A stretch of DNA of 64,000 nucleotides, taken from assembly GCF_012932215.1 (NCBI RefSeq), contig NZ_CP048788.1, positions 1,922,001-1,986,000 of the forward strand, in the 5' to 3' direction. The notes below the pieces were generated by a model. The model made no database searches. It was not told the origin of the DNA and was given only the letters and a program-made list of their open reading frames with translations. The translations under genes were made by a program, and so were the position numbers. The DNA is from Roseobacter ponti (lineage in GTDB: Bacteria > Pseudomonadota > Alphaproteobacteria > Rhodobacterales > Rhodobacteraceae). Below are positions 45,240 through 49,345 of the stretch, in pieces (position 1 is the first letter of the stretch; each line of letters begins with the position of its first letter).

Positions 45240-47597
45240 TCAGAACGTTGTGCTGAGGGTCAGCTCGAACGACTGATCCCGGTCAAACTCTTCTTTCTGA
45301 AGCGCTTCGGTGAAGTTGAACCGCAAAGGGCCCACCGGAGTATCCCACAGAATGGCAAAACCGATCACATGGCGGAAGGACCCGCCCTCACCCACGATCG
45401 TTCCGCCGGCTGTGTTCACATCCGACAGATCCCAGAAGTTGCCGACGTCGTAGAAGAGACCGCCCTGGATGCCGTATTCCTCAGGCAGACCAATCGGGAA
45501 CTCCGCTTCAAAACGGGCGGCGATATAGAAGTTACCCCCCAGCGGGTCCTCATCACTGACCGACAGATCGCGCGGACCTATGCCGCCCGGCTCAAAGCCG
45601 CGGATGATATTGGTGTTGTTGAGAAAGCGGTCAACGGCGCGGTTGGTTCCGCTGCCCCAGCTCAGCGCGCCGCCTTCCAGCGAGGCGCGCAGGGTAACTT
45701 CTTCGGAGAGAACCCGCGTTTCGCCGATCACCTGGGCCCGGGTGCGCACAAATTCATTGTCACCGCCGAGGCCGGCGAAATCCTGACCGAACTCAAAGAG
45801 GTAGCCCGAATTCGTATCGATACCGCTGGTACGGGTATCATAGGTAAAGACATAACCCAGCGAACTGCTTGTCAGCGCACCGGCGGCAATCTCGTTGCCG
45901 ATGACCACACCGTTGCTGGCCGGGTCACGCACCAGCATTTCGCTGTCTTCATAGCTGTAGCGCAGCTGCAGCGATGAGTTTTCACCAACCGGGAAGGTCA
46001 GCGAGGGCGTGAAGACCACACGATCGGTGTCGTAGGTGGTGAAAGAACTGTCCGTCTTTGCAATGTCAAAGCGCAGACCAAAGGCCAGATCGCGCCCGAG
46101 GAATGCCGGCTCAACAAAGTTCACGCCATAGCGGCGCGATTCCTCGGCCGTTGACACGGTCAGACTGAGACGCTGGCCCCGGCCCAGCAGGTTCTGCTCA
46201 GCAAAACGGATGGCAAAACCGATACCGTCGTTGTTTGAGAAGGATGCACCGAAGGTAAGCGAGCCTGTCGGCTGTTCGACGACATCCACATCGACCACGA
46301 CCTGATCGGGGCTTGACCCCTCACGCGCATTGACCTCAGCAGTTTCAAAGTATTCCAGTGCGCGGATCCGTTCGGCCGCCTCGCGGATTTCGCGCGGATT
46401 GAAGGGGTCGCCCTCAACGCTGTTAAACTGACGCCGGATCACCTGATCGAGTGTGGTGGTGTTGCCTTCGACATCGATCCGTTCGACAAAAACGCGCGGC
46501 CCGCGGCTCAGCACATATTCGACGTCCAGTTCGAGGTTGCGCTCGTCACGGGTCACGCGCGGCTCAACCCGCAGAAAATCAACGCCGTCCCGCAGTGCCT
46601 GGCGCTCCATGCGGGCAATATCGATTTCAAGAAGCGTCGGCGAATAGACTTCGCCGTTCTTGATCGCGGCAATAGAGCGATAGATGTCGGGATCGGCGTC
46701 GCTGACTTCACTGGTGACAGAGATCTCACCAATGCGGAACTGCTGGCCTTCCTGCACATTGAAAACGAGGAAATAGCCGTCGCGCTCTTCGGTCAGTTCG
46801 GCATTGGCCGAGAGTGTGCGAAAGTCGACGTACCCTCGGGACAGATAGAAATCACGCAGCACCTGTTTGTCGAACTCGACCCGGTCGGCCACAAGCGTGT
46901 CGCGCCGCACAAAGGTCCGGAAAAGACCGGCCTGTTTTGTTTCCAGCACGCGGCGCAGCCTGCGGTCTGAATAGACCCGGTTGCCGGTGAAGCTCAGACG
47001 TTCGATCTCAATATTGTCGCCCTCGAAGATCTCAAAGACGAGATCGACGCGGTTATCCGAGCGCCGGATGATCCGTGGTGACACACGGGCTGCCAGACGT
47101 CCTTCGTTGGCATAAGCATCCGCAATCAGCGCAGCATCGCGCTCGACCTGACTTGGGTTGAAGACCCGGCGTTCGTTTGAGTTGATCGCCGCTGCGAGCA
47201 CATCGTCATCAATGCGCCGGTTGCCCTCAAAATTGATCCGGTTGATCGTGGGCAGTTCGACGACGCTGATCTGCAGGGATGACCCGCGCGGTGTAAAGAC
47301 GACGCTCTCGAAAAGCCCCGAATCCACGAGGCGCTGATAGGCGGCGTTTAGCTGACCTTCGGTCAGGGTCTGGCCGCGGGCGATTCCCGCCCGTGAGATA
47401 ATTGCGGCATTGCCGATGCGCGCATTGCCCTCCACCGAAATTGAATTCAGTGTGATCTGCTGGGCCAGCACCGCAGGGGGTGCAGCCATCCAGGCGCCTG
47501 ATAATGCCAGTGAAAACAGGCCGGCACGCATGCCGGCGCTAAGCGGTTTGTGAGCCGATAAGAAGGCGCTGCGCGCCTGCGAAATGCCCCGTGTCAT
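45240..47597 (-). CDS. bamA: Outer-membrane protein assembly factor BamA
   Basis: Core of the BAM complex that folds beta-barrels into the outer membrane. The 785-residue protein has a signal peptide ending VLAQQ and five POTRA repeats (for example ITLNSISVEGNARIGNAAI and IEIERLSFTGNRVYSDRRL). A 16-strand barrel with the lid motif IIRGFEPGGIGPRD follows, and it ends in Phe (ELTLSTTF). A probable promoter lies at 47632-47660. skp follows 4 bases downstream. Confidence 0.98.
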   Translation of the reverse strand: MTRGISQARSAFLSAHKPLSAGMRAGLFSLALSGAWMAAPPAVLAQQITLNSISVEGNARIGNAAIISRAGIARGQTLTEGQLNAAYQRLVDSGLFESVVFTPRGSSLQISVVELPTINRINFEGNRRIDDDVLAAAINSNERRVFNPSQVERDAALIADAYANEGRLAARVSPRIIRRSDNRVDLVFEIFEGDNIEIERLSFTGNRVYSDRRLRRVLETKQAGLFRTFVRRDTLVADRVEFDKQVLRDFYLSRGYVDFRTLSANAELTEERDGYFLVFNVQEGQQFRIGEISVTSEVSDADPDIYRSIAAIKNGEVYSPTLLEIDIARMERQALRDGVDFLRVEPRVTRDERNLELDVEYVLSRGPRVFVERIDVEGNTTTLDQVIRRQFNSVEGDPFNPREIREAAERIRALEYFETAEVNAREGSSPDQVVVDVDVVEQPTGSLTFGASFSNNDGIGFAIRFAEQNLLGRGQRLSLTVSTAEESRRYGVNFVEPAFLGRDLAFGLRFDIAKTDSSFTTYDTDRVVFTPSLTFPVGENSSLQLRYSYEDSEMLVRDPASNGVVIGNEIAAGALTSSSLGYVFTYDTRTSGIDTNSGYLFEFGQDFAGLGGDNEFVRTRAQVIGETRVLSEEVTLRASLEGGALSWGSGTNRAVDRFLNNTNIIRGFEPGGIGPRDLSVSDEDPLGGNFYIAARFEAEFPIGLPEEYGIQGGLFYDVGNFWDLSDVNTAGGTIVGEGGSFRHVIGFAILWDTPVGPLRFNFTEALQKEEFDRDQSFELTLSTTF

Positions 47598-47631
47598 GCT
47601 CTGCCCCGTTCCTCAGATTATTATATTTATC

Positions 47632-47660
47632 TGAGTACCGGCAAAGCATCGTCTTGTCAA
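47632..47660 (-). promoter_or_regulatory. Probable bamA promoter
   Basis: On the minus strand, TTGACA (47660-47655), then 17 bases, then TACTCA (47637-47632), about 35 bases upstream of the bamA ATG. The -35 is perfect and the -10 is weak. Confidence 0.4.
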
Positions 47661-47754
47661 AACCATGTGGTCAGAAAATGCGGAACAACTAAATGCGCGC
47701 CCTGCGGCGCGTCCGGAGCGCAGCCCGAAAGCTGCGCACCCTGTCACAAACGGG

Positions 47755-47886
47755 TCACTGAATGACTGTTCCCAGCCATGCGCCCGCTGCGAGTGCCAGC
47801 ACGATGGTGCTGACGTATAGAACGCGGTCCCAGTTCAGATCCATCAGGAGGCTGAGCCCGCGATATCCGTTGTGTACTGCCTGCAT
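47755..47886 (-). CDS. 43-residue membrane peptide between rseP and bamA
   Basis: A 43-codon frame from ATG 47886, preceded by GGAGGG at a good spacing. The product reads MQAVHNGYRGLSLLMDLNWD and then one hydrophobic helix (RVLYVSTIVLALAAGAWLG, about 21-39) before TVIQ. It sits on the same strand in the gap of the envelope operon (rseP ends 112 bases upstream, bamA begins 157 bases downstream). I recall similar small proteins at this site in relatives but could not confirm. Function is unknown; its position suggests a link with envelope assembly. Confidence 0.65.
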   Translation of the reverse strand: MQAVHNGYRGLSLLMDLNWDRVLYVSTIVLALAAGAWLGTVIQ

Positions 47887-47998
47887 GTCGGCCCTCCGTT
47901 CATTTACAGAGCCAGAAATACCGGCAGATTACGGCGTCAGTTTGTCCGATTGTGGCAAAACTGAGGCATTTTCGACCGGCGCGACGGGAAAAGCACCA

Positions 47999-49345
47999 TC
48001 ACGGACAGAAAATATCGTTGCCGAGCGCAAAGACCATCAGCGTCAGAACCATCGCAAGCCCCAGCGTCATAAGCACTTTCAGCGCGCCGTCGCTGGGTGG
48101 TTTGCCGGACACCGCTTCATAGGCGTAAAACACCAGATGCCCGCCGTCGAGCGCCGGCACAGGGAACAGGTTCAGCATCCCCACGGCGGTGCTGAGCACG
48201 GCGATGAACCAGATAAAGGATTCCGCGCCCTGGCTGGCCATCGCCCCGGATGTCTGGGCAATGCCGATGGGGCCGCTGAGATTGCAGGTGCTGATGCTGC
48301 CGGCGATCATATGACCAAGGCCCGAGAGCGAGCTTGTGATAATCCGTCCGGTCTGCTGCACGCCAAGGCCAAGTGCTTCAAAAACCCCGGGTGTTGTGGT
48401 CGCGGGTGAAAAGGCAAAGCCGCCGGCGATGCCGATCCGCCAGTAGGTTTCAAACCCGCCATCGGGCTGCGGTTCGTCCACGCGGCGCGGTGTCATGGTC
48501 ATGGCGAGCGTGTCCGCGGCACCTGCGCGCCAGACGGTCAGATCAAGCGGTGCCCCCTCGCCGCCCTCGACCGCTTCCTTGAGCTGGTCGAATGCAAAGA
48601 TCGGCGCGCCGTCAATTGCGGTAATCACGTCACCCGCCTCGAGACCTGCGTCAAAGGCTGCTGACTGCGGGCTCAGTGAGCTGACAATCGGCGGAAAAAT
48701 CCAGGACCCCTTTACGGTTTCTTCGCGCCCTGCCCGTTCCACGGTGATGTCGACGACCGGGCTGCGCTCAAGTCCGTCGAGCGCGCCGGAATAAGTTTCG
48801 TCATCCGTCGACGGCAACGGCACGCCGCCGACGGCCAGCAGTACGTCACCTGCCTGAAGACCGCGGTTTTCGACAGGAAGAGGATGCAGTTCACCCACGG
48901 TCAGCTGTCCGCGTGTGACGCCGGTACTGAGCAGGATCAGCGCAAAAACAGCGATCGACAACGCAAAGTTAAAGACCGGACCGGCCGCCACAGTGGCGGT
49001 GCGGGCCCAGAGGGGGGCGCCGTGCATCGTCGCCCGCAAGCGGACAGGGTCGTCCACGACCTCTGCCATGGCCTCTTCATCCTTGCCCGATGCCGCATTG
49101 GCGTCACCTGCGAATTTCACATAGCCGCCAAACGGCAGTGCCGCGACCTGCCAGCGCGTGCCGCGCTTATCGACGCGCGACCAGAGCACCGGCCCGAAGC
49201 CCAGGGAAAACACATCCGCATGAATGCCTGACCACCGGCCGACGATGTAATGACCGTATTCGTGGATCGCAACGATCACCGAAAGCGCCAGAACAAAGGC
49301 TGCGATGGTCCAGAGCAGGCCACCAAACTGAGGAATAAACGACAT
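47999..49345 (-). CDS. rseP: Site-2 intramembrane protease RseP
   Basis: Membrane zinc protease that cuts anti-sigma factors and leftover signal peptides. From ATG 49345 it has 448 residues, the family length. It has the zinc motif VAIHEYGHYIVG in the first helix, LPFGGYVKFAGD, one or two PDZ domains (about 125-290) and the C-terminal LFPVPALDGGHLVFY with the third zinc ligand Asp. The open frame continues to 49432 but without homology. It lies 10 bases after dxr. Confidence 0.96.
   Translation of the reverse strand: MSFIPQFGGLLWTIAAFVLALSVIVAIHEYGHYIVGRWSGIHADVFSLGFGPVLWSRVDKRGTRWQVAALPFGGYVKFAGDANAASGKDEEAMAEVVDDPVRLRATMHGAPLWARTATVAAGPVFNFALSIAVFALILLSTGVTRGQLTVGELHPLPVENRGLQAGDVLLAVGGVPLPSTDDETYSGALDGLERSPVVDITVERAGREETVKGSWIFPPIVSSLSPQSAAFDAGLEAGDVITAIDGAPIFAFDQLKEAVEGGEGAPLDLTVWRAGAADTLAMTMTPRRVDEPQPDGGFETYWRIGIAGGFAFSPATTTPGVFEALGLGVQQTGRIITSSLSGLGHMIAGSISTCNLSGPIGIAQTSGAMASQGAESFIWFIAVLSTAVGMLNLFPVPALDGGHLVFYAYEAVSGKPPSDGALKVLMTLGLAMVLTLMVFALGNDIFCP

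Follow-up and report, generated by a model that had tools for sequence, protein, structure and literature searches.

The short open reading frame at 47886–47755 on the minus strand of the window (the whole 64,000-nt stretch of Roseobacter ponti DNA analyzed here) is a genuine protein-coding gene, called sp below; of the three reading frames on this strand, only this one shows purifying selection. Its 43-codon product, MQAVHNGYRGLSLLMDLNWDRVLYVSTIVLALAAGAWLGTVIQ, represents a new family of small single-helix membrane proteins in an unusual gene setting, between rseP and bamA. The durable two-gene unit is sp-bamA, with a looser link to rseP. Judging from sequence, sp may act from within the inner membrane to help or tune outer-membrane assembly. 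A fuller model, in which this inner-membrane microprotein and bamA have their own ChvI-type promoter and the microprotein would have a role in outer-membrane biogenesis, is given roughly even chances.

Gene structure and distribution

The sp frame runs from an ATG at 47886 to a TGA at 47757–47755, with a Shine-Dalgarno (SD) sequence, GGAGGG, five bases before the ATG (47897–47892). This agrees with the first-pass annotation, which had pointed to a short frame with a strong ribosome site in the rseP-bamA gap and to a membrane peptide set amid genes for envelope assembly. Both neighbors are on the same strand: upstream is an rseP frame (49432–47999; NCBIfam TIGR00054, 250.5 bits, cut-off 147.6), a TTG-started ORF whose true start is probably further in, and the next gene downstream is bamA (47597–45240; TIGR03303, 622.9 bits, cut-off 297).

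A search with a 27-row profile found sp homologs in 278 of the 394 genomes sampled from the family Rhodobacteraceae, representing 277 of 393 genera, in a sample drawn at approximately one genome per genus. A single-sequence search gave matches in 28 of 59 genomes, counting the window's own. With the profile, an order-level sample gave 153 of 195, all of the genomes listed being from the same family as the window genome, and a class-level sample gave five of 289, four of them again from this family. The fifth (G693, E 0.0056) is not supported as an out-of-family homolog: its locus scored only E 3.3 with a larger profile and had no match at 1e-3 in a locus scan. No convincing sp was therefore found outside the family among the 289 genomes of the class sample. 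A contig scan yielded 77 loci, including ones from Roseobacter, Sulfitobacter, Roseovarius, Salipiger, Maritimibacter, Aliiroseovarius, and Defluviimonas. Altogether 152 loci were gathered, 146 with sp and six without. Removal of identical copies and fragments left 119 distinct sp loci, of which the genome searches supplied 64 and the contig scan 55; two of the 119 (L030 and L031) were retrieved via bamA.

Conservation of the frame between species, named in the first-pass annotation as the check to be made, is evident from this distribution and from the pattern of substitution. For the sp frame, dN/dS has a median of 0.27 and a maximum of 0.88, always below 1, over 780 pairs of equal length and moderate synonymous divergence; medians for the two remaining frames on this strand are 1.11 and 2.20 (778 pairs). 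Entropies at the three codon positions are 0.91, 0.49, and 1.39 (38 genes of 43 codons), and a core SD sequence precedes sp in 91 of 119 loci, against a mean of 34 and a maximum of 50 in shuffled sequences. These figures argue strongly against conservation of a purely non-coding kind, in which the frame would be incidental to a leader RNA or promoter that is itself conserved. The conserved DNA array upstream and the hairpins downstream, both described below, are what such a reading has in its favor, and it is considered extremely improbable.

The family appears in none of the collections searched. Pfam and NCBIfam have no match for the peptide (residues 2–43, 42 aa, as query), Rfam has nothing within 47000–49000, and the PDB sequence search gave no significant match, with one at E 2.4. 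The best PHROG match is weak (E 0.022), and there is no sign of a phage origin. No description of the peptide or of an sp-bamA unit was found in the open-access papers searched, and a literature search on ribosome profiling in Rhodobacter gave nothing bearing on sp.

Linkage to bamA and rseP

Both neighbors, rseP before and bamA after, are present in 113 of the 119 distinct loci, and were in all 28 of the first loci. Of the six exceptions, two are cut by contig ends (L143 and L150), three have no rseP within 1,500 nt (L042, L051, and L060), and one lacks bamA (L124). In the last, sp directly follows rseP and bamA is absent within 2,491 nt; this is a 9.9-kb MAG contig, and either a true split or a misassembly could be responsible. 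The two links differ in how tightly they are kept. Among the 118 loci with bamA in view, none has an sp-bamA spacing of at least 400 nt, and the median gap is 141–146 nt. The rseP-sp spacing is at least 400 nt in eight of 114 loci, which together with the three lacking rseP within 1,500 nt makes 11 in which rseP is distant or out of view. Since bamA, where it is in view, is always less than 400 nt away and rseP is not, sp-bamA is the lasting unit. In one locus (L101) a gene labeled here as photolyase-like lies between rseP and sp.

These arrangements bear on the idea that sp is an accessory or substrate of RseP, its predicted N-in, C-out helix being held or cut by the protease. RseP is known to act on single helices of that orientation, and rseP is upstream of sp in 114 of 119 loci. 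However, bamA stays with sp in the 11 loci where rseP does not, and a promoter-like array sits between rseP and sp, so the two are probably under separate control. RseP is kept as a candidate partner with a looser linkage, and the accessory or substrate reading as such is quite unlikely.

The gap between sp and bamA (47754–47598 in the window) often has structure of its own. T-tailed hairpins were found in 53 of 118 such gaps, against 11.65 in shuffled sequences, which suggests partial termination, so that in some species sp transcripts would outnumber those of bamA. The window has a GCGCAGC hairpin at 47737–47718, without a T-run behind it. Gap hairpins and a short frame just ahead of bamA, at the small median distance given above, would also fit a translated leader or arrest peptide of the SecM, VemP, or MifM type controlling bamA through the hairpins. 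Arrest peptides, however, conserve their C-terminal end. In sp the C-terminus varies in both sequence and length (complete copies have 40–56 residues) and has no conserved arrest motif, the conserved positions instead being residues 8–21 and one face of the helix; Rfam is also blank over this region. Control of bamA by such a leader is thus decidedly improbable.

A tandem array upstream of sp

Upstream of sp are repeats of a half-site, GCCnnAWT, at an 11-nt step; alignment alone defines these half-sites and their spacing to the −10. The simplest form of the repeat, GCC-N8-GCC, occurs in 91 of the 117 stretches of 120 nt scanned upstream of sp. Corresponding counts are 2/117 for rseP stretches, 15/117 after sp, and a mean of 5/117 (maximum 12) in shuffles. 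Distances between GCC triplets peak at 11 (104), 21–22 (94), and 32–33 nt (64). A TA step follows 15–16 nt past the last GCC; among 110 aligned loci its T is shared by 68% and its A by 87%. In the corresponding place the window has a putative −10, TATTTC, at 47920–47915. The window's own putative response-regulator array (47967–47928) is an imperfect tandem with one 11-nt and one 21-nt step. It consists of GCC at 47967–47965, GCCACAAT at 47956–47949, which completes a GCC-N8-GCC, and GCCGTAAT at 47935–47928, 21 nt on. A strict 22-nt array pattern gave one match, within a coding region, and misses this site because of its 21-nt step. Tandem direct repeats just upstream of a −10 are the site layout of OmpR/PhoB-family regulators.

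The array goes with sp. It remains in front of sp, as GCC-N8-GCC, in nine of the 11 loci where rseP is distant or out of view. Two half-sites or GCC-N8-GCC are present in 99 of 117 loci with sp (120 nt scanned) vs. three of 29 without (140 nt scanned), for which a Fisher p of 5e-14 overstates the case, the loci being related, and is not a true probability.

Genomes without sp

The 29 loci without sp used in this comparison are four individual loci (L033–L036, of which L036 is from another family) and 25 from family genomes that did not match the profile. Thirty of the latter genomes were examined by eye on ORF listings: 25 have no similar ORF in the rseP-bamA gap, so that some lineages appear to do without sp, and five have a candidate gap ORF. 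Of the candidates only L179 scores well against the profile (E 2e-5), the others scoring 0.071 (L178), 0.17 (L160), and 0.62 (L182), and the profile misses that in L167. These five loci and L032 are left out of the comparison set. In 27 of the 29 loci bamA begins within 126 nt of rseP; in one the distance is 249 nt and in one it was not determined. In a set of eight genomes, two carry divergent sp homologs (G009, E 0.0013; G029, E 2.5e-9), four have no sp (G019, G022, G033, and the outgroup G035), in G032 the locus ends at a contig end, and G026 has no bamA match. A C-terminal Cys in RseP, considered as a co-marker of sp (111 of 115 loci with sp, 20 of 29 without), was dropped; it is suspected merely to track phylogeny.

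Candidate regulators

PMC9731502 gives the ChvI consensus of S. meliloti as N-GCC-N8-GCC and the Caulobacter form as TTGC-N3-GCAA, and reports that in Caulobacter the bam and tol genes are controlled by ChvI. The sp array, a putative tandem GCC array with an 11-nt step, resembles the Sinorhizobium promoters, and it is this form of the ChvI repeat that is found in 91 of the 117 upstream stretches. Unlike Caulobacter ChvI promoters, none of the 117 contains TTGC-N3-GCAA; the position of bamA, downstream of the array, does recall the Caulobacter targets, and the window genome has consecutive ChvG-ChvI-HprK-like genes, for a response regulator, a kinase, and an HPr kinase. The best model for the kinase is ChvG, with 360.7 bits where the cut-off is 740; ChvI is not named by any of the 25 NCBIfam models listed. 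The response regulator is found in all 19 genomes of the genus. ChvI is slightly favored as the owner of the array, which could belong to another OmpR-family regulator. CenR, whose motif is given in PMC9275681 as a TGA-N8-TGA direct repeat, was also considered as the regulator and rejected, with this motif in only six of the 117 stretches (shuffle mean 2.5, maximum 7). Among the papers searched, one, a Brucella review, mentions both ChvI and BamA.

Across the 19 genus genomes a strict tandem pattern gave 53 matches vs. 10 for a reversed control. Of these sites 28 were read (L192–L219), and they include pckA next to chvI, a DD-carboxypeptidase gene, a DksA-like gene (labels from Pfam on L199, L201, and L192), and sp itself. 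Other genes at these sites encode unnamed proteins that are membrane-bound by appearance; six of the 28 sites are inside long open frames, and further ones have no clear served gene. In the chvI-pckA region GCC-N8-GCC occurs in only five of 19 genomes, each time on the same strand as pckA (shuffle mean 0.88, maximum 4), with three of 19 on one strand in a coding control, which is a weak indication of chvI autoregulation.

Three further sets of sites were noted in Roseobacter. In three genomes (L200, L207, and L218) an unnamed protein of approximately 110 residues, with no Pfam match for the L200 copy, starts 38 nt past the start of a GCC array, and is possibly a further target of the same regulator. 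In four genomes including the window's (L155, L196, L197, and L202), an unnamed 114-residue protein with one likely membrane helix, for which the L155 copy has no Pfam match, lies behind the same array. Seven loci (L194, L195, L198, L205, L210, L212, and L214) share a tandem site with well-conserved flanks, CGCCCTATTTNNGCCNNAATT.

Predicted topology and a conserved helix face

The single transmembrane helix noted in the first-pass annotation is borne out by one hydrophobic stretch at residues ~22–41 (codons at 47823–47764), and AlphaFold2 gives one helix over residues 2–42 (mean pLDDT 84.5, pTM 0.43). In 116 of 117 peptides Arg and Lys are more abundant on the N side of the helix than on its C side, with nearly none past residue 38, from which an N-in, C-out topology is predicted. 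At the N-side membrane edge, N18-W19-D20-R21 (codons at 47835–47824) is near-invariant, the residues being conserved in 114, 103, 115, and 112 of 117 peptides. Over residues 22–40 the periodicity of conservation peaks at 90 degrees per residue, with a permutation p of 0.00035 for the best angle within 85–110 degrees and 0.010 at 100 degrees. The conserved face comprises Y24, T27/I28, A31/L32, G35/A36, and G39, within which T27, A31, G35, and G39 are small and L32 and A36 conserved; in 104 of 115 peptides, small residues occupy all three of positions 31, 35, and 39.

A conserved helix face of small residues normally packs against another helix. A partner is therefore expected in the inner membrane, and by its sequence the sp helix should pack against an inner-membrane protein. 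Direct contact with BamA is unlikely, since BamA is an outer-membrane and periplasmic protein and sp, predicted to be N-in, has few residues past the helix and is conserved within the helix and N-terminal to it. The window peptide has almost no periplasmic tail. Nor does it have the features of a BAM subunit: there is no lipoprotein anchor (it has no Cys and hence no lipobox, although 28 of 119 members contain a Cys), and its few residues past the helix are not expected to reach BamA. The first-pass suggestion of a small partner of BAM thus stands as regards gene linkage to bamA, given that none of 118 loci has a spacing of at least 400 nt, and is unlikely as regards physical contact. For the lipid A machinery, the other partner suggested there, the analysis turned up nothing in favor and nothing against.

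Comparison with known systems and a possible role

The closest parallel in overall plan is MgrB of the Enterobacteriaceae, a membrane protein of 47 residues that belongs to the PhoQ/PhoP regulon and binds PhoQ through its membrane region (PMC8404706). Like MgrB, sp is tiny, with a single helix and a short cytoplasmic N-terminus, and would be made under a likely envelope sensor system. By this analogy sp could be a feedback modulator, made from a ChvI-driven promoter, that binds ChvG through its helix and tunes the kinase. Its size, its single helix with a conserved face, and its probable place in the regulon of a sensor kinase system speak for such a role. Against it, a kinase modulator needs no strict linkage to bamA, and the presence of the regulator in 19 of 19 genus genomes makes co-occurrence uninformative there. 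MgrB also requires a periplasmic region (PMC8404706), of which sp has almost none, and the likeness is one of plan; both the regulator and the target of sp are, moreover, putative. Feedback of this kind on ChvG is rather unlikely. MgrB itself is not known to have a link to bamA. A variant that takes in this linkage, in which ChvI-driven sp reads or tunes ChvG by helix packing and is hard-wired to BamA as an MgrB-like loop within the bamA unit, is considered just as doubtful; if true, the loop would set outer-membrane assembly capacity and the stress signal together.

The model preferred here is that of a co-expressed helper. The sp-bamA unit would have its own promoter, with an OmpR/PhoB-type site of tandem direct repeats immediately ahead of the −10, and from this promoter the two genes would be transcribed together. 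ChvI of the ChvG-ChvI envelope-stress system would most likely bind the array, and envelope stress would raise BamA and the sp microprotein together. T27, A31, G35, and G39, with L32 and A36 and the NWDR edge, may then pack on a helix belonging to some inner-membrane protein whose task is to serve or sense the supply of outer-membrane proteins. ChvG, the Sec/YidC machinery, and RseP are candidates for this partner. Small single-helix inner-membrane proteins such as CydX, AcrZ, and KdpF, some of them made with the larger protein they accompany, are partners of inner-membrane complexes, whereas BamA, to which sp is linked, is an outer-membrane protein.

bamA is essential, and to our knowledge its control outside the enterobacteria has been little studied. 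In 277 of 393 sampled genera of this family a microprotein, of a family unrecognized by Pfam and NCBIfam, is locked to bamA behind a response-regulator-like array. As such, sp offers a simple genetic way into the question of how such bacteria might match outer-membrane assembly to envelope stress.
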